Shown piece by piece: positions 10,710-17,990 of a DNA stretch of 64,000 bases. The DNA comes from Polaromonas sp. AET17H-212. GTDB lineage: Bacteria; Pseudomonadota; Gammaproteobacteria; Burkholderiales; Burkholderiaceae_C. How positions within the stretch are numbered: position 1 is the first letter of the stretch; each line of letters starts with the position of its first letter. The stretch spans positions 186,001 to 250,000 of the forward strand of contig NZ_NBZW01000001.1 in the NCBI RefSeq assembly GCF_002379085.1, read 5' to 3'. The position numbers and the translations under genes are program-made. Under the pieces are notes generated by a model that ran no database searches, was not told where the DNA came from, and worked only from the letters and a program-made list of their open reading frames with translations.

Positions 10710-11024
10710 ATGATGACCGACTCAAGCCCCCTGGACCTGACCCTTGCCCACCAGGCGATGTTCAGCGTGTCCGACGCCGCAGGCGTACAGGTCACCTGCC
10801 ACGAAGGCAGTTTGTGGGTCACGCTCGATGACGATCCGCGCGATATCGTGCTGGACGCCGGCGGCAGCTTCCTGACGACGGAGCATCGCCGCGCGCTGAT
10901 TTACGCGATGAAGCCATCGTCGCTGAGCCTGCTGGTGGCCACCGCTGGCGCACGCACACGCCGCGCCGGGCGCACGGCGGCAGCAGCCGACATCAAGGTG
11001 ACGTTTGCACTGCAGCCGGCCTGA
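10710..11024 (+). CDS. DUF2917 family protein
   Basis: 104 residues. The start has an excellent AGGAG 5-9 nt before the first of two tandem ATGs (10710 and 10713). The conserved core is VTCHEGSLWVTLDDDPRDIVLDAGGSF, then a Leu/Ala-rich stretch, typical of DUF2917, a small cupin-like beta-rich family found mostly in Burkholderiales. No signal peptide or membrane helix is visible. It is divergent from, and probably controlled by, the LysR gene, an arrangement I have commonly seen for this family. Function unknown. Confidence 0.75.
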   Translation: MMTDSSPLDLTLAHQAMFSVSDAAGVQVTCHEGSLWVTLDDDPRDIVLDAGGSFLTTEHRRALIYAMKPSSLSLLVATAGARTRRAGRTAAAADIKVTFALQPA

Positions 11025-11519: not shown

Positions 11520-12011
11520 ATGTTTCAAAATCCAGAAAGATGGGCTTGCGCTGGTGTGCTGATGGTGGGTCAATTCGCCTTTGCCGCGCAGGTGTTTGCC
11601 GGCGATGGCTTCCTGGTCATCACCCGGGATGTGCCTTACCAGTCCGCAGCGGGCCCGCGCCATACCGGGCAGGTCACCGGCGTCCGCACCGCGCCAGATG
11701 TCCCGATGTTGGGTGCCGGATCAGCGGTCCGCGCAGGCGCAGTCACTGAGTTGACGGATCAAGAGTCGGCAGCGATCGCGGGACGCGTGCAGGGCCACAT
11801 GGGCAGCGTCGCGGCCACCGTGCAGGCGGCAACGGCACAGACGGGCCTGGCGTCTGGAAAATTCACGGGTACAGGGGGCGATGGCTTTGCGCCCGCAGGC
11901 GGGCTGGGGTCGCTGGCTGGCGGCTTCGGCGTGCAGGCGGGAAGCACTGTCGGGCGCGCCACCGGCGCAATGGGTCAGGCCCTGAGCGGCGCCCTCACCG
12001 GCACCAGGTAG
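11520..12011 (+). CDS. fapA: FapA-like amyloid accessory protein
   Basis: 163 residues. The start is supported by GAGGGGAG about 9 nt upstream. The N-terminus looks like a signal peptide (ACAGVLMVGQFAFAAQVFA). The mature part is small, Gly/Ala-rich and without Cys, with a helical segment VQGHMGSVAATVQAATAQTG and a Gly-rich tail. Sequence alone is weakly diagnostic. The call rests on position: first gene of a six-gene set whose sizes and order match Pseudomonas fapABCDEF. FapA there influences fibre composition. The gene is followed 10 bp later by fapB. Confidence 0.6.
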   Translation: MFQNPERWACAGVLMVGQFAFAAQVFAGDGFLVITRDVPYQSAAGPRHTGQVTGVRTAPDVPMLGAGSAVRAGAVTELTDQESAAIAGRVQGHMGSVAATVQAATAQTGLASGKFTGTGGDGFAPAGGLGSLAGGFGVQAGSTVGRATGAMGQALSGALTGTR

Positions 12012-12021
12012 GGGGACGGCC

Positions 12022-12651
12022 ATGTTGCAGATTCGACCCACGTCATACACGGTTCTGGCGCTGGCCTGGCTGGCCTCGTTGCCCTGCTGGAGTCAGGTCG
12101 CCGGACCGGAGTTGCCGGGCTATGTCACGCGCAGCGTGATCGACGGCAATGCGCTGAGCAATGTTCGCGGGCGATTCGCCGTGAACATGGCAGCAGGAGA
12201 TTCAAATGCCCAGACGAATGCGGGCGCCATGGCCATTGGCCTGGACGGCGGCACTGCCGCAGCCTTGGTCGGTGTGCACCAGGCGACAGGATGGATTCGC
12301 GCTACCGCGCCGGATCTGTCCATCGCAGTGATCGGGGGCCGTGCCTTTGCAAACAGCTCGGGCGCAGTCTCTGTGAACCAGACCAGCGGCGTGGGGAACA
12401 CCCAGGCCAACGGCATGGCGGTTGCGGTGGGCTTTGATGTGGAAGCAGCTTCAGAGAGCGTGCTCGCTGCGACTGCTTCCGGTGTTGGGCTGGCTGGTCC
12501 GGCCAGGGGCGCAAACATGAAGGCAGTATCGATCTCCGATGCAGCCTTTCGCGGCTCGCGCGGCCTGGTCCAGATCAACCAGTCTGCGGGGTCGGGCAAC
12601 AGCACGGCCAACAACTTCGCCTTCCAGCTTCAGCTGGGGACGAAACCTTAA
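12022..12651 (+). CDS. fapB: FapB-like minor amyloid subunit (three imperfect repeats)
   Basis: 209 residues with a signal peptide (VLALAWLASLPCWSQ). Three imperfect repeats lie at about 39-73, 105-137 and 172-206, each of the form G.A..N..G...VN...G..N.Q.N. Examples are GNALSNVRG followed by GDSNAQTNAGA, and SSGAVSVNQ followed by GVGNTQANGMA. This Gln/Asn/Gly repeat with short linkers is the hallmark of Fap subunits. In Pseudomonas FapB is the minor subunit or nucleator. No Cys remains in the mature protein. It is translated from a start 10 bp after fapA and 30 bp before fapC. Confidence 0.8.
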   Translation: MLQIRPTSYTVLALAWLASLPCWSQVAGPELPGYVTRSVIDGNALSNVRGRFAVNMAAGDSNAQTNAGAMAIGLDGGTAAALVGVHQATGWIRATAPDLSIAVIGGRAFANSSGAVSVNQTSGVGNTQANGMAVAVGFDVEAASESVLAATASGVGLAGPARGANMKAVSISDAAFRGSRGLVQINQSAGSGNSTANNFAFQLQLGTKP

Positions 12652-12681
12652 GACAGTACTTAACTTTTTGGAGATCATGCC

Positions 12682-13887
12682 ATGAAAACACGCAAAATGA
12701 AGTCCGCTCCCCTGGCTCTGGCCGTGGCCGCATTGTTCGCCGCTCCGCTGGCTTTTTCGCAAGAGGACACCCGGGACAGCAAGACCACGTCGGCAACCAG
12801 TGTCAGTACGGACACCAGTTCCACGGAGAACAGCACCAGGGTCAACATCGAGAAAGACCTGCGTTACCGGCAGAATGTCAGCGTCGGCGGCAGAGTGCAT
12901 GTCACTGGTCACATCGACGTCAACTCGAGCTCCGCAGCCGTGGTGGACGACAAGCAGATCAACTACCTCAACCAGGTCAACAACGACGAAGTCACGAACT
13001 CGTCGGTGGTCAATGGCAACGCCCTGCAGAACGCAGCCGGCAACATCGGCCTGAACGTCACGGCCGGCGACAACAACCAGCAGGCGAATTCTGCCGCGCT
13101 GGCCGCGTCCGATGCCAGCTTCCTGTTTGGTTCGTCCGATGCTGAAATCTTTGCACGCCAGGATGTCCAGGCCAACCGGGCTGTCAACTACGGCAACACC
13201 AACACGGCATCACTGGCCGGCAATGCGTTGCAGAATGCGACCGGCAACATCGGGGTCAACATCTCCGCCGGCAACAGCAACCAGCAGAAAAACGATCTGG
13301 CGGCTTCTGTCGCGGTCGCACGCATGGCCACGGCGACGGTGGCGGTCAAGCAGATGAACGACCACAACGTCACGTCCAACACGCCCAAGCAGCAGGAAGT
13401 CGTGACCCTGGTCCCGGTGAACCTGGCCTTCCAGTCCCGCGGCATCTATGCCGGCATCTCCGACCAGAAGGGTGACCAGTACCCCGACACCTGGACCGGC
13501 AACAGCCACCCGGGCGGCAGCCAGACCGGGCACATCGACCTCGACAGTGCTGTGCAAGGCGCGCAGAGTCGCCAGGCCTCGTCCGGCCTGAACGCCAACG
13601 GCACGCCCAACGGCGACTCCAGCGCCGGTGGCGCCCTGAGCTTCAATGAGCAGGGCGACATTGCCCTGAGCGGCTCAATCACCGGCTCGATCCCCGTCGT
13701 GACACGTGTCAGCCTGGCCACGACCAACACGTCTTCGCTGGGCGGCAACGCCTTGATGGGCGCGGCGGGCAATATCGGCGTGAACATCGCTTCGGGCACC
13801 AACAACCAGCAATACAACGGCATGGCTGTGTCGGCAACCCAAGCTGGTGGCAGCAACGGCGGTGGCGGCGAGGCACTCCGTCGCTGA
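12682..13887 (+). CDS. fapC: FapC-like major functional amyloid subunit
   Basis: 401 residues with a signal peptide (LALAVAALFAAPLAFS). Three repeats R1 (108-142), R2 (176-210) and R3 (351-386) contain the near-identical core GNALQNAAGNIGLNV / GNALQNATGNIGVNI / GNALMGAAGNIGVNI, followed by .AG.(N/S)NQQ.N. The linker between R1 and R2 is about 33 residues; between R2 and R3 it is about 140, Gly/Ser/Asn-rich. This R1-L1-R2-L2-R3 plan is that of Pseudomonas FapC, the main fibre protein secreted to the cell surface in biofilms. The whole protein contains no cysteine. A GGAG site precedes the ATG. A strong hairpin follows immediately (13907-13937). Confidence 0.88.
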   Translation: MKTRKMKSAPLALAVAALFAAPLAFSQEDTRDSKTTSATSVSTDTSSTENSTRVNIEKDLRYRQNVSVGGRVHVTGHIDVNSSSAAVVDDKQINYLNQVNNDEVTNSSVVNGNALQNAAGNIGLNVTAGDNNQQANSAALAASDASFLFGSSDAEIFARQDVQANRAVNYGNTNTASLAGNALQNATGNIGVNISAGNSNQQKNDLAASVAVARMATATVAVKQMNDHNVTSNTPKQQEVVTLVPVNLAFQSRGIYAGISDQKGDQYPDTWTGNSHPGGSQTGHIDLDSAVQGAQSRQASSGLNANGTPNGDSSAGGALSFNEQGDIALSGSITGSIPVVTRVSLATTNTSSLGGNALMGAAGNIGVNIASGTNNQQYNGMAVSATQAGGSNGGGGEALRR

Positions 13888-13906
13888 AGTTCCGCTGCTG
13901 GATCAA

Positions 13907-13937
13907 CCTTCGGCCGCCCTCCCCCGGCGGCCGAAGG
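13907..13937 (+). terminator. Strong intercistronic hairpin after fapC
   Basis: Perfect 12-bp stem, arms CCTTCGGCCGCC (13907-13918) and GGCGGCCGAAGG (13926-13937), with a 7-nt loop, followed by CTTTC. The T-run is short, so it is more likely a leaky terminator or a 3'-end stabiliser than a full stop. It sits 20 bp after the fapC stop and 28 bp before the fapD start. Confidence 0.75.
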
Positions 13938-13964
13938 CTTTCAGCGGGGCACAGATGAACTGTC

Positions 13965-14681
13965 ATGAGCACGCAAAAACACAGATGGATCCGGTCGGCG
14001 GCGTGGCTGTTGGGTCATGCTGCTGCATTCCTGCCATGGGCGGGTCATGCCGGCGCGATCGGCCTCGGCGGCGTGATCCCCGGCGCGGGCGCCATCCAGA
14101 AGAACATCCTGAGCATGCGGGAAATGCGGTATGTGGACATGGTTCCACAAAAAACCGACTTCAGCTGCGGCGCGGCAGCACTTGCCACCATCCTCAATTA
14201 CGCCTATGGTCAGAAGCTGACGGAAGACGAAGTCATCCAGGGACTGCTTCAGGTCAGTGATCCCGCCATCGTCAGGGAGAAGGGATTTTCCCTGCTCGAC
14301 CTGAAAAATTACGTGCAGGCCAGGGGCATGCGCGGACGTGGCTACAACATGTCGCCGGAGATGCTGGACAAAGTCAAGGTTCCTACCATTGTGTTGCTCG
14401 ATATCCGGGGGTACAAACATTTTGTGGTGCTCAAGAAGACGACACCGGACAAGGTCTACCTTGCCGATCCTGCACTGGGCAACCGGGTGGTTGCCAGGGA
14501 GGATTTTATGAAAGGCTGGAACCGGGTGGTGTTCGCCGTGATCGGTCAGGGCTTTGAGCGTGACACCGTGCTGTTGCGACCCAAAGAGCCGCTGACCGCG
14601 CGCAGCACCATCGACACCTGGCGGCCACTGACGGATGCCCAGTTGCTGGAGTTCGGGTTCTCCAGCGCAGAGCTTTTCTGA
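13965..14681 (+). CDS. fapD: FapD-like C39-type cysteine peptidase
   Basis: 238 residues. A hydrophobic N-terminal segment (SAAWLLGHAAAFLPWAGHAGA) suggests export or membrane anchoring. The C39 peptidase domain spans about 55-200: QKTDFSCGAAALATIL carries the nucleophile Cys68 after the usual Gln, GYKHFVVL carries His152 and YLADPALG carries Asp168. All three triad residues are present. The domain stands alone, without the ABC transporter parts of bacteriocin exporters, as in Pseudomonas FapD, which is needed for fibre formation. No strong ribosome-binding site is visible, and an intergenic hairpin precedes the gene, so expression may be lower than fapC. Confidence 0.85.
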   Translation: MSTQKHRWIRSAAWLLGHAAAFLPWAGHAGAIGLGGVIPGAGAIQKNILSMREMRYVDMVPQKTDFSCGAAALATILNYAYGQKLTEDEVIQGLLQVSDPAIVREKGFSLLDLKNYVQARGMRGRGYNMSPEMLDKVKVPTIVLLDIRGYKHFVVLKKTTPDKVYLADPALGNRVVAREDFMKGWNRVVFAVIGQGFERDTVLLRPKEPLTARSTIDTWRPLTDAQLLEFGFSSAELF

Positions 14682-14749
14682 GGCGTTGTGCAATGGATCC
14701 GCAGCGCCCGATGAATCACCAGATGCGCAAGCTGATGGTCTTCAGTTGA

Positions 14750-14767
14750 CGGACAGCCTGCTGTCCG
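14750..14767 (+). other. Short hairpin between fapD and fapE
   Basis: Arms CGGACAG and CTGTCCG with a CCTG loop, 22 bp before the fapE ATG and just upstream of its AGGGGA ribosome-binding site. There is no T-run. It could affect mRNA stability or fapE initiation. Confidence 0.4.
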
Positions 14768-14788
14768 GACAGTTTGAGGGGAAATGTG

Positions 14789-15673
14789 ATGACACGAACC
14801 ATTTATTCACTGGCGCTTGCCGCGGCGCAACAGGAAAAACCGTGGCACGGCAAGCCGCTGCGCCCTGCGGGCGGCTGCAGGTCATGGCAGCAGCGTGCGC
14901 TGGTTGCAGCGTTGGCAGGCGCTTTGGCTACCCTGCCCCTGGCACGCGCCGCGCTGCCGCCCGACCTGAATGTGTTTGATCATGCGTCCGAGATTCCTGA
15001 CGGTGAGCTCGGCCACATGCGCGGCAAATTCGTGGCGGCCGGACAAGTCATGTACTTCGGCGTCGAAATGGTGACGCAGTGGCTCGCGTCCTCGGGACAG
15101 TCGATTACCGCCTCCGGCGTGTTGCAGATCAGTCTGGCCGGCAACACGCCGCAGGTCAGCTTTATACCAACCATCACCGTCGAGCAAAAAGCCGCCATGG
15201 GCGGTACTGCCAGCCAGGGGTCCGCCGTGGCAAGCGGCGGTGGCGGGCTGCAGGACGTCACTGGCGTGGTGCAGAACATCCAGGTGGCGGGCGCCTCGAA
15301 CGGAATCACCAACACCATAGGCATCAACGTCCAGAACGCGTCGGGGCCAACGGCGCTGCAGTCCCAGCCCCAGGGGGCGCTCTCGGCATCCACCACCACA
15401 GCCAGCGGCAGCGTGGCCTCCGTCGGCCTCGGCGGCAACGGCATGAGTGTCGCCGTCGCCGTGCCGGACCAGGGCCGGGCGATGCAACAGATTCGCCAGG
15501 TGGGCATGGGCGGGGGGCAGGTGTTGCAGTCGGTACAGCTGGGCGGTGACGTCAACCAGATTCACAACCGGATCAACCTCAATGTCCAGATGAATTCCGC
15601 GTCCGGTCCGGCATCCCCGTCGGGCAACCTGTTGCTGGGGATGAAGCTCATGCCGCAAAGCGGTACTTTTTAA
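14789..15673 (+). CDS. fapE: FapE-like amyloid-associated secreted protein
   Basis: 294 residues from ATG 14789, supported by AGGGGA at 14777-14782; GTG 14786 is an alternative. The N-region is unusually long (about 35 residues) before the hydrophobic core ALVAALAGALATLP and a likely cleavage after LARA. The mature part contains MRGKF near residues 77-81, resembling VRGRF in FapB. Gln/Asn segments include NQIHNRINLNVQMNSAS and ITNTIGINVQNASG. In Pseudomonas FapE is a minor, fibre-associated secreted component. The assignment rests on its place between fapD and fapF and on composition. There are no clear three-fold repeats. Confidence 0.7.
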   Translation: MTRTIYSLALAAAQQEKPWHGKPLRPAGGCRSWQQRALVAALAGALATLPLARAALPPDLNVFDHASEIPDGELGHMRGKFVAAGQVMYFGVEMVTQWLASSGQSITASGVLQISLAGNTPQVSFIPTITVEQKAAMGGTASQGSAVASGGGGLQDVTGVVQNIQVAGASNGITNTIGINVQNASGPTALQSQPQGALSASTTTASGSVASVGLGGNGMSVAVAVPDQGRAMQQIRQVGMGGGQVLQSVQLGGDVNQIHNRINLNVQMNSASGPASPSGNLLLGMKLMPQSGTF

Positions 15674-15678
15674 GTCGC

Positions 15679-15703
15679 CGGACGGGCCAGCCGCGCCCGT
15701 CCG
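15679..15703 (+). other. Hairpin between fapE and fapF
   Basis: Perfect 9-bp stem, arms CGGACGGGC (15679-15687) and GCCCGTCCG (15695-15703), 7-nt loop, six bases after the fapE stop, with no T-run. Probably an mRNA processing or stability element rather than a terminator, because fapF follows with its own GAGGGAG site. Confidence 0.45.
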
Positions 15704-15799
15704 TCACAGATTCGGGGCCGCACAGGGCGCTGAAAAGGGGAGCGCCGCCTTGTAGCGGACAGCAAATTTGGCAATCGAAAAACTGATGAGGGAGATCTT

Positions 15800-17065
15800 A
15801 TGCGACGTTTTTTTCCGCTGCGGCCCCTGGTGTTGATGATGGCAGCCGGCCTCCCCCTGGCTTGCTTGGCAGACAACGATGACGAAGTAGCCGACCTGCG
15901 CCGGCAGGTACAGGCGTTGACCCAGCGTGTTGACACGCAGCAGTCGTCTCTGCGAGTGCTGGCCGCGCGCTTGCAGCAGCTTGAGGCGGCAGGCCCTGGC
16001 CAGGCGCGCATGGTGAGAACGGTCGATGCCGCCCAGCCCGATGGGTCCGCAGGCCAGGAGCCTGCCTCCGCAGAGGGTAGCGGTGCAGAGAAGGTCGTCC
16101 GGGAGGCACCGCCTTCGCGCAGTGCCGAGGCGGTGTACCGGGAACAGAGCGCCATGTTCGACCGCAAGTTCACCCTGGAAACCGGCGTGAGTTATTCGCA
16201 CTCGAACCGGCGGGACCTTTTCCTCAATGGTTTTCTGGCGCTGGATGCGATCTTTCTCGGGCAGATCAATCTTGACCGCATCAAGGCCGACACCCTGACC
16301 TTTGACGTGACGGGGCGATATGCGCCCACGGACCGGCTCCAGTTCGATCTCAACGTGCCCTACCTGTACCGCTATTCCGCCTTTTCGTCGGTCGGCGCGG
16401 GTTTCAGTACCTCTGCCGTGGCCGAGAGAAATGTCTCGAACGGCGATGTGGGCGACGTCAGTGCCGGCGTGTTCTACCGCCTGATCCAGGAAAGTGCAGA
16501 CAGCCCCGACACCGTGCTCAACTTCCGCGTCAAGGCGCCGACCGGAACCAGCCCCTATGGCATCAAGTTCGCGGATACGCCGGATTCTGGCGGCAACCTG
16601 AAGGTTCCCGCGAAGTTGCCAACCGGCAATGGCGTGTGGGCCGCCTCGGCCGGGTTGAGCTTCATCAAGACGGTGGATCCGGCCATCCTGTTCGCCAACC
16701 TGGGCTACACGCACCACTTTGACCGCAGCTTCAACGACATCAGTTCGGACCCGAACACGCGAACACCGGGCAGCGTCAGGCTTGGCGACCAGTTTTCGCT
16801 GGGGGCGGGTTTCGCCTTTGCGCTCAACGAACGCATGAGCCTGAGCACCTCGTACTCGCACCGCTTTGCCAGAAAAGCGAAAATCCGCCAGGAGGGCCAA
16901 GGCTGGCAAACCGTCAATGGCAGCGACTCCAGCGCCGGTGTGCTCAACTTCGGCGTGACCTATGCCTTGTCGGACCGGCGGTCCATGGTGTTCAACCTCG
17001 GCATCGGCGTCACCGCCGACGCGCCGGACGTCACCATCGGGGTCAAGTTCCCCTTCAGCTTCTGA
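15800..17065 (+). CDS. fapF: FapF-like outer-membrane amyloid secretion channel
   Basis: 421 residues. A signal peptide (LVLMMAAGLPLACLA) is followed by a short heptad-rich coiled coil at about 28-65 (DDEVADLRRQVQALTQRV, LRVLAARLQQLE), then a linker, then a beta-barrel from about 115 to the end. The barrel shows alternating strands (FTLETGVSYSHSNR, LTFDVTGRYAPTDRLQFDLN) and ends in an aromatic residue (GVKFPFSF), the usual outer-membrane assembly signal. In Pseudomonas FapF is a trimeric barrel plugged by such a coiled coil, through which FapB/C/E leave the cell. It is the last gene of the operon and is convergent with an SDR gene. Confidence 0.88.
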   Translation: MRRFFPLRPLVLMMAAGLPLACLADNDDEVADLRRQVQALTQRVDTQQSSLRVLAARLQQLEAAGPGQARMVRTVDAAQPDGSAGQEPASAEGSGAEKVVREAPPSRSAEAVYREQSAMFDRKFTLETGVSYSHSNRRDLFLNGFLALDAIFLGQINLDRIKADTLTFDVTGRYAPTDRLQFDLNVPYLYRYSAFSSVGAGFSTSAVAERNVSNGDVGDVSAGVFYRLIQESADSPDTVLNFRVKAPTGTSPYGIKFADTPDSGGNLKVPAKLPTGNGVWAASAGLSFIKTVDPAILFANLGYTHHFDRSFNDISSDPNTRTPGSVRLGDQFSLGAGFAFALNERMSLSTSYSHRFARKAKIRQEGQGWQTVNGSDSSAGVLNFGVTYALSDRRSMVFNLGIGVTADAPDVTIGVKFPFSF

Positions 17066-17084: not shown

Positions 17085-17990
17085 CTAGGCTTCGCGAAGG
17101 GCTTTTTTCAGCTGCTCGCCGATTTCCGGCTTGTGCGCAAACGGGTTGGTCGGGTTGCGCGCCTGCAGGATGTCCTCCAGCCGCGTCTGCACCGAGCCAA
17201 TCGCCTTGGGGTGGCTGTAGATGTAGAACTGGTTGGCGGCGATCGCGTCGAACACCTTCTGCGCCACGTCGGCCGCCGTTACCTTGCCGGAGCCAACCGC
17301 CTTGTCGCTCATGGCCTGGCCGATCAGCTGGCTTTTGGTCGGCTTGGCGGCAGGCAGATCATCGGGCCGGTTGCGCTGGCTCTGGCTGATGCCGGTGGGC
17401 ACGAAGAAGGGGCACAGCACCGAGGCACTGATCTGGTCGGTCACCAGCGCCAGGTCCTGGTACAGGGTTTCACTGAGGCTGACCACCGCATGTTTGCTGA
17501 CGTTGTAAATGCCCATGTTGGGAGCATTAAGCAGCCCGGCCATGCTCGCGGTATTGACGATGTGGCCCTGCCAGGCCGGGTCTTTTCCGGCGGCTTCCAG
17601 CATCATCGGCGTGAACACACGCACGCCGTGCGCCACGCCCATGAGGTTCACGCCGATGACCCATTCCCAGTCCTTCAGCGTGTTCTCCCAGATCAGTCCC
17701 CCTGCCCCGACACCGGCGTTGTTGAAGACAAAATGCGGCGCGCCGAAACGTGCCAGCACAGCGGCGCCGAGCGCTTCGACCTCGGCGGCCTTTGACACGT
17801 CGAGGCGGAAAGCCAGCACCTGCGCGCCGGCGGCCGTCATTTCAGCGGCAGCCTTGTCGAGCGCATCCTGCTGCACATCGGCAAGCACGAGGTTCATGCC
17901 GAGCCGGGCGCCTATGCGTGCGCACTCGAGGCCGAAGCCCGAGCCGGCACCGGTGAGAACGGCGGTTTTGCCTTTGAAATCCGTGATCAT
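17085..17990 (-). CDS. Short-chain dehydrogenase/reductase
   Basis: 301 residues. Classical SDR motifs are present: TGAGSGFG (13-20) for NAD(P), NNAG (90-93), Ser149, and YNVSK with Tyr162 and Lys166. The C-terminal 40 residues are longer than in the shortest family members (FDAIAANQFYIYSHPKAIGSVQTRLEDIL), as in a group of SDRs often found near fatty-acid genes. The start codon overlaps the stop of the upstream GNAT gene by one base (TGATG), so it is translationally coupled. The substrate is not evident. Confidence 0.88.
   Translation of the reverse strand: MITDFKGKTAVLTGAGSGFGLECARIGARLGMNLVLADVQQDALDKAAAEMTAAGAQVLAFRLDVSKAAEVEALGAAVLARFGAPHFVFNNAGVGAGGLIWENTLKDWEWVIGVNLMGVAHGVRVFTPMMLEAAGKDPAWQGHIVNTASMAGLLNAPNMGIYNVSKHAVVSLSETLYQDLALVTDQISASVLCPFFVPTGISQSQRNRPDDLPAAKPTKSQLIGQAMSDKAVGSGKVTAADVAQKVFDAIAANQFYIYSHPKAIGSVQTRLEDILQARNPTNPFAHKPEIGEQLKKALREA

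Follow-up and report, generated by a model that had tools for sequence, protein, structure and literature searches.

A fapABCDEF-type functional amyloid operon in Polaromonas and a leader-like motif in its FapE protein

Genes and products of the fap operon

The gene content of a 64,000-nucleotide stretch of the Polaromonas sp. AET17H-212 genome (hereafter the window) was analyzed around positions 11520-17065. The initial annotation had placed there six same-strand genes with the order and domain content of Pseudomonas fapABCDEF. Six intact open reading frames of 163, 209, 401, 238, 294 and 421 residues are indeed present on the + strand. They are distributed as follows:

11520..12011, + strand: fapA, 163 aa, likely periplasmic chaperone of FapB and FapC, identified with a FapA profile of our own
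12022..12651, + strand: fapB, 209 aa, minor (nucleating) amyloid subunit, NCBIfam NF058557 (7.4e-28)
12145..12612, + strand: three FapB repeats with their linkers (residues 42-66, 106-130 and 173-197), from a pattern scan
12682..13887, + strand: fapC, 401 aa, major amyloid subunit, NCBIfam NF058558 (2.3e-55; 188.5 bits against a cut-off of 195)
13015..13818, + strand: three FapC repeats with their linkers (residues 112-136, 180-204 and 355-379), from a pattern scan
13965..14681, + strand: fapD, 238 aa, C39 cysteine peptidase, NCBIfam NF058616 (1.6e-83) and Pfam PF03412 (2.2e-22)
14789..15673, + strand: fapE, 294 aa, fibre-associated subunit, NCBIfam NF058559 (1.5e-33)
15800..17065, + strand: fapF, 421 aa, outer-membrane secretion barrel, NCBIfam NF058560 (1.5e-147)

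The genes fapBCDEF are adjacent on one strand in canonical order with fapA in front, an ABCDEF arrangement found in 81 of the 102 fap loci compared. The start of fapE is placed at ATG 14789 (294 aa); an alternative TTG at 14774 would give 299 aa. Sec signal peptides, read by eye, are apparent on all six proteins.

The order and domain content claimed for the operon were confirmed by profile searches for FapB to FapF and by the separate profile for FapA, and the proposed HMM check returned FapD for gene 4 (1.6e-83) and FapF for gene 6 (1.5e-147). The NCBIfam matches of FapB to FapF are strong but each lies below the curated cut-off (in gene order 97.4/190, 188.5/195, 279.3/330, 116.1/250 and 491.8/700 bits). 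FapE likewise scores below its cut-off in 14 of the 21 matching genomes of our phylum sample, the window genome among them; these cut-offs are a naming threshold, not a defining feature of Fap. For gene 1, Pfam and NCBIfam gave no match. It was recognized as FapA with a profile of 85 FapA sequences built without Polaromonas (45.4 bits, the best of 2000 shuffles reaching 8.0), and still scores 27.3 bits when the nearest clades are also removed (best of 2000 shuffles 6.1). The expectation that automatic annotation would leave such genes unnamed fits both results.

The three repeats of one type announced for each of two genes were found in FapB and FapC. None of 2000 shuffles of FapC gave even one repeat; many other FapC escape so strict a pattern, which finds no repeat in 57 of 101. 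The C39 peptidase with Cys68, His152 and Asp168 was verified by a residue check and by the profile matches of FapD: these residues are present, plus Gln62, and the three are invariant among five aligned FapD. FapF aligns with the solved FapF structure (PDB 5o65, 8.1e-101). Its AlphaFold model (mean pLDDT 72.6, from 10 sequences) shows an N-terminal helix followed by a coiled coil (residues 27-64, predicted with low confidence), and a beta-barrel with a plug helix (residues 108-121). The best Foldseek matches of this model are FapF chains, with a TM score of 0.93 by target length for 5o65. The description of the last gene as a coiled coil followed by a beta-barrel agrees with the model, a predicted plugged FapF barrel.

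The operon shares with Pseudomonas fapABCDEF (strains UK4 and PAO1) the gene order, the six families, the three repeats of FapB and FapC, the C39 triad and the plugged coiled-coil barrel. It differs in sequence: the window FapD is 44-54% identical to Pseudomonas records, and the window FapF 46% identical to that of a genome of a Pseudomonas-like family (f15). FapC of the window is without any cysteine and lacks a C-terminal CxxC. This absence was considered as a distinguishing trait and rejected: 40 of 68 Pseudomonas-like FapC (a group set by locus number, which includes a few records with other names) also have no CxxC in their last 60 residues. In the available part of a published comparison, the motif is limited to some Pseudomonas and absent in P. 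putida and P. entomophila (PMC3684753). A C-terminal CxxC is not a defining feature of Fap, and the operon in Polaromonas is a further example of an already known kind.

A leader-like motif in FapE and the substrate of FapD

Secretion of FapC depends on the active-site Cys of FapD, according to the parts available of PMC5557850. In the same text, mass spectrometry detected peptides of FapA to FapD throughout their length and no FapE peptides in the first ~70 residues, and GG/GA sites of the FapF linker were proposed as FapD targets. As far as the accessible text of two other papers goes, the FapD substrate 'is yet to be determined' (PMC6173800), and FapD is 'thought to process' the FapE N-terminus and the FapF periplasmic region (PMC12822426). 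We examined two segments of the window proteins in this respect:

14990..15031, + strand: FapE leader-like motif, residues 68-81, EIPDGELGHMRGK|F, identified by conservation, with a putative FapD cut at K80|F81
11748..11789, + strand: leader-like segment of FapA, residues 77-90, ELTDQESAAIAGRV, the best site for the FapE motif in FapA (0 of 1000 shuffles as good)

The motif [LIV]xDxE[LM]xx[LM]RG[RK][YF], closely followed, stands behind the signal peptide in all 100 position-checked FapE (FapE directly behind FapD; of 102 loci, two with their best match elsewhere were left out), in a set that is Pseudomonas-heavy (68 of the 101 loci with FapC). The weakest row, L073, keeps it in part. Among 62 distinct motifs, G at -2 and R or K at -1 occur in 62/62. 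The other positions are almost as constant: D at -10 in 60, E at -8 in 51, L or M at -7 in 62, L, M or I at -4 in 59, R at -3 in 57 and Y or F at +1 in 59.

C39 peptidases cut double-glycine leaders with the consensus LSxxELxxIxGG. Set in register with this consensus, the FapE motif agrees in its hydrophobic positions (-12 and -4), in the E-L pair at -8 and -7 and in the G at -2, while -11 varies and -1 differs. The Fap case is unlike the C39 bacteriocin ABC-transporter leaders in three respects: the enzyme is periplasmic, the leader is a second one behind a Sec signal peptide, and position -1 of FapE is R or K. No published description of the FapE motif was found in the open-licence literature, in so far as its text was available (including PMC5557850, PMC6173800, PMC5135000, PMC6173795, PMC3684753 and PMC12822426).

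From this conservation we propose that FapD cuts FapE at K80|F81 and thereby licenses export, a proposal to which we give about even odds. Some observations count against the cut. Characterized leaders have G or A at -1, cleavage falling just behind GG/GA (PMC10233263, available part), whereas the FapE motif has R or K. In a Pseudomonas-type FapE (L035) residue 40 is the last of the motif and the published FapE peptides begin at ~70, so that one long hydrophobic tryptic peptide would have to go unseen. Finally, the front half of the motif is shared by FapA, of which peptides covering the whole length were nevertheless detected (PMC5557850, available part).

The alternative is that the FapE motif is an uncut docking or structural element, which binds FapD or FapF, and that the true substrate of FapD is the FapF linker, trimming of which opens or closes the pore. 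Binding without cutting occurs in some C39 domains, the half-motif is common to FapA in spite of the peptides just mentioned, the linker sites already have a published proposal behind them (PMC5557850, available part), and the FapF linkers of the other three Polaromonas do contain GG. These sites are nevertheless far less constant than the FapE motif, which is present in 100/100 loci: among 94 FapF linkers GG occurs in 43, GG or GA in 74 and neither in 20, the window FapF having one GA and no GG. Moreover, the motif is found beside related C39 peptidases, in neighbouring proteins that often have a true GG (next section). We regard the docking alternative as unlikely, though not to be neglected, and retain cleavage of FapE as the working proposal.

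FapA was also considered as a second FapD substrate. The front half-motif recurs at the same place in 51 of 89 FapA (shuffle p<=0.005) but likewise in 21 of 101 FapB, and the candidate was not retained; the recurrence stays suggestive because related sequences are not independent. That the leader-like segment of FapA is a processing signal is suggestive only, because published data oppose FapA processing. In FapF, too, the full FapE motif scores well (59 of 94 at p<=0.01), probably on account of the FapF coiled coil.

Two side observations concern similar segments elsewhere. The opening segment of FapB's first repeat (12136-12177, VIDGNALSNVRGRF) resembles the FapE motif, with 0 of 1000 shuffles as good; such a segment is absent from several other FapB, and the resemblance may reflect chance or a shared origin. 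One locus with two tandem fap operons (L062, G563:C78:1000-20000) also encodes small proteins of 144 and 147 aa with a leader-like motif (LGDRDLERVVGRY and LEDGDLASIRGRF), and a similar small protein of 114 aa is found at L064.

Related C39 and FapF-type loci

According to the available part of a published survey, fapD and fapF also occur as pairs in five more phyla (PMC6173800). The FapC-less loci of this type that we examined, together with Acinetobacter FilB/FilC, resemble fap in having a C39 peptidase, a FapF-like barrel and exported-looking neighbours with a leader-like motif. They differ in their presumed substrates, a glycine-rich protein or FilA in place of proteins with FapB/FapC repeats, and in position -1, which is mostly G or Q.

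One such locus was observed in the genome of the window strain itself, outside the window (L014, G000:C17:34000-40000). It comprises a glycine-rich protein with the conserved C-terminus SLVQQSVNVQANL, a 126-aa RGG protein, a C39 peptidase, a FapE-like RGG protein and a divergent FapF-like barrel; a further gene presumably encodes an NtrC-type activator. A glycine-rich gene of this kind is present in 9 of 12 such loci, and its product in L014 may be an unnamed exported fibre.

Lower-grade FapF-like matches occur in 23 of 87 genomes of the genus, two of them partial. Among 13 such loci read (12 in Polaromonas, one in Cupriavidus) 12 have a C39 gene, and in all 12 both proteins beside it carry L-x-x-x-R-G-G. 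The downstream RGG protein aligns with FapE over the motif and the FG segment after it (hhalign probability 79%, E 1.5e-5, 44 columns). Two alphaproteobacterial plasmid loci show the same order and signal (ITDYELATMRGG and LSEEVLARQRGG), and Acinetobacter FilA bears MDDAALSAATGQ. By the same inspection no C39 gene was seen at L191, L192 and L193, which are uninformative either way.

We then considered the phylum sample of 398 genomes, in which 49 places were found, 22 of them Fap-type by score and 27 others. The latter reduce to 25 loci, the second locus of the window genome being left out and two places lying in one region. The rule for the signal was set before these 25 loci were read, but after FapE, the second loci of Polaromonas, Cupriavidus, the two alphaproteobacterial loci and FilA had been seen; Q at -1 was allowed because of FilA. 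The signal is present within the first 115 residues of a neighbouring ORF in 16 of the 25 loci, whose FapD-like peptidases are more distant. Counted by ORF, 17 of the 97 neighbours have it, compared with 7 of the 617 remaining ORFs of these loci and 1.4% of shuffles; the corresponding Fisher p of 8e-11 is an overstatement, because several of the 25 loci are near relatives. The 17 matches end in GG (10 cases), GQ (6) or GR (1). Of the nine loci without the signal, five have RGG or RGR in a looser, post hoc look, by which nothing was seen at L239, L241, L242 and L250.

These results suggest a wider scheme, which we would judge as apt to prove wrong as right. FapD would be a member of a widespread periplasmic family of C39 leader peptidases, whose substrates cross the inner membrane by Sec and then present a second, leader-like signal, [LIV]xDxE[LM]xx[LM]RG[RKGQ], to be cut beside a FapF-type barrel, which would license the passage of fibre subunits, amyloid or other, across the outer membrane. 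The fap substrate would be FapE, cut at K80|F81, and elsewhere the signal would mark unnamed glycine-rich or Fil-type neighbours.

Distribution, genomic site and origin

The 'Comamonadaceae-like' genome of the initial annotation was a correct call: the organism is a Polaromonas, and so are the other three carriers in the genus. The fap operon is present in 4 of 87 genomes of the genus (FapF near 490 bits), namely the window genome, G012, G013 and G053. In the latter three each protein is kept at 78-97% identity, FapD being 89% identical in a search of the named genomes. FapE was found in one of 399 sampled genomes of the family, the window genome alone, and in 21 of 398 genomes of the phylum sample, the window genome included. 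A published screen of GTDB v226 reports 1,602 fap gene clusters, more than 90% in canonical order (PMC12822426, available part).

The operon occupies one site in all four carriers, bordered on the left by lysR plus a 104-aa gene and on the right by an SDR gene. The flanking genes in the window are:

10710..11024, + strand: 104-aa gene on the left flank, which relatives retain next to the empty site
17085..17990, - strand: right-flank gene, which we take to be an SDR oxidoreductase, present in relatives without fap

The empty site was read in six relatives without fap. In G051 and G052, whose SDR gene is 97% identical, it has the plain order lysR - 104-aa gene - VOC-like - AraC-like - SDR (the names lysR, VOC-like and AraC-like being our assumed assignments). 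G010 and G023 have the same genes with further genes between them, and the part of G057 and of G060 that was read did not include the 104-aa gene. G012, unlike the window, has the VOC and AraC genes between fapF and SDR. Beside them, right after fapF, it carries a partial second copy of the lysR/104-aa region (L016:10065-10314, 76-78% identity to the matching stretches), a possible trace of the arrival of the operon.

A tree of FapD and FapF from 44 loci groups Polaromonas with Methylophaga (support 100/99) and then with Methylotenera (100/98); its root was not inferred, and some of its branches are long, none of them in this group. Methylophaga and Methylotenera, together with a Hydrogenophilus MAG, have the closest FapD outside the genus (58-69%), and FapA is present in their operons. 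Methylotenera differs in that FapF is upstream of fapA, not behind fapE, in its two full loci. As a separate observation, a Paucimonas MAG labelled Burkholderiaceae (L132) has a fap operon inside the Pseudomonas group of the tree, which is either a mis-binned contig or a recent transfer.

The simplest reading is a probable lateral gain, in which one branch of the genus acquired the operon from relatives of Methylophaga and Methylotenera. An operon ancestral to Polaromonas and lost in most species would also produce its presence in 4 of 87 genomes at one site, a pattern which on presence and absence alone fits gain or loss. This second history is improbable in view of the single FapE among 399 genomes of the family, of nearest tree kin in Methylophaga, a gammaproteobacterium, and of a site that is undisturbed in two of the six relatives read. 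In the available part of an earlier survey, fap is described in three proteobacterial classes and lateral transfer thought minor (PMC3792158).

Promoter scans gave little. No sigma-54-like site (<=2 mismatches) lies between 8993 and 12410; the 33 matches in the window compare with a shuffle mean of 47, none is near fapA, and a sigma-54 promoter was not retained. Between 11000 and fapA no sigma-70-like site was seen, and the sigma-70 and terminator scans remained at chance level. A decayed or silent remnant making no fibre, to which the want of a recognizable promoter in the 500 bp upstream might point, is very improbable given six intact frames, conserved catalytic residues and repeats, and a set kept in four genomes.

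We favour, with a confidence of about 87%, a complete fapABCDEF functional-amyloid operon with Pseudomonas-like roles, FapD licensing most likely through FapE and a probable lateral gain. By homology, the organism would secrete an amyloid of the FapC type. With roles carried over from Pseudomonas work, periplasmic FapA would keep FapB and FapC unfolded, and the plugged coiled-coil barrel FapF (a trimer in Pseudomonas) would export FapB, FapC and FapE. The fibre would be seeded by FapB and built by FapC, FapE joining it. The periplasmic C39 peptidase FapD would license this secretion, most likely by cutting FapE at K80|F81, past the leader-like motif.

The operon adds Polaromonas to the genera with a known amyloid system, in comparison with the available parts of the surveys, and is a case of probable lateral transfer, a process judged minor in the 2013 survey as far as its available text goes. 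The question of the FapD substrate gets one residue-level candidate answer, which could be tested by one mutant or by N-terminal sequencing. For the many unnamed FapD/FapF-type loci, the leader-like motif may further serve to search for the substrates they export.
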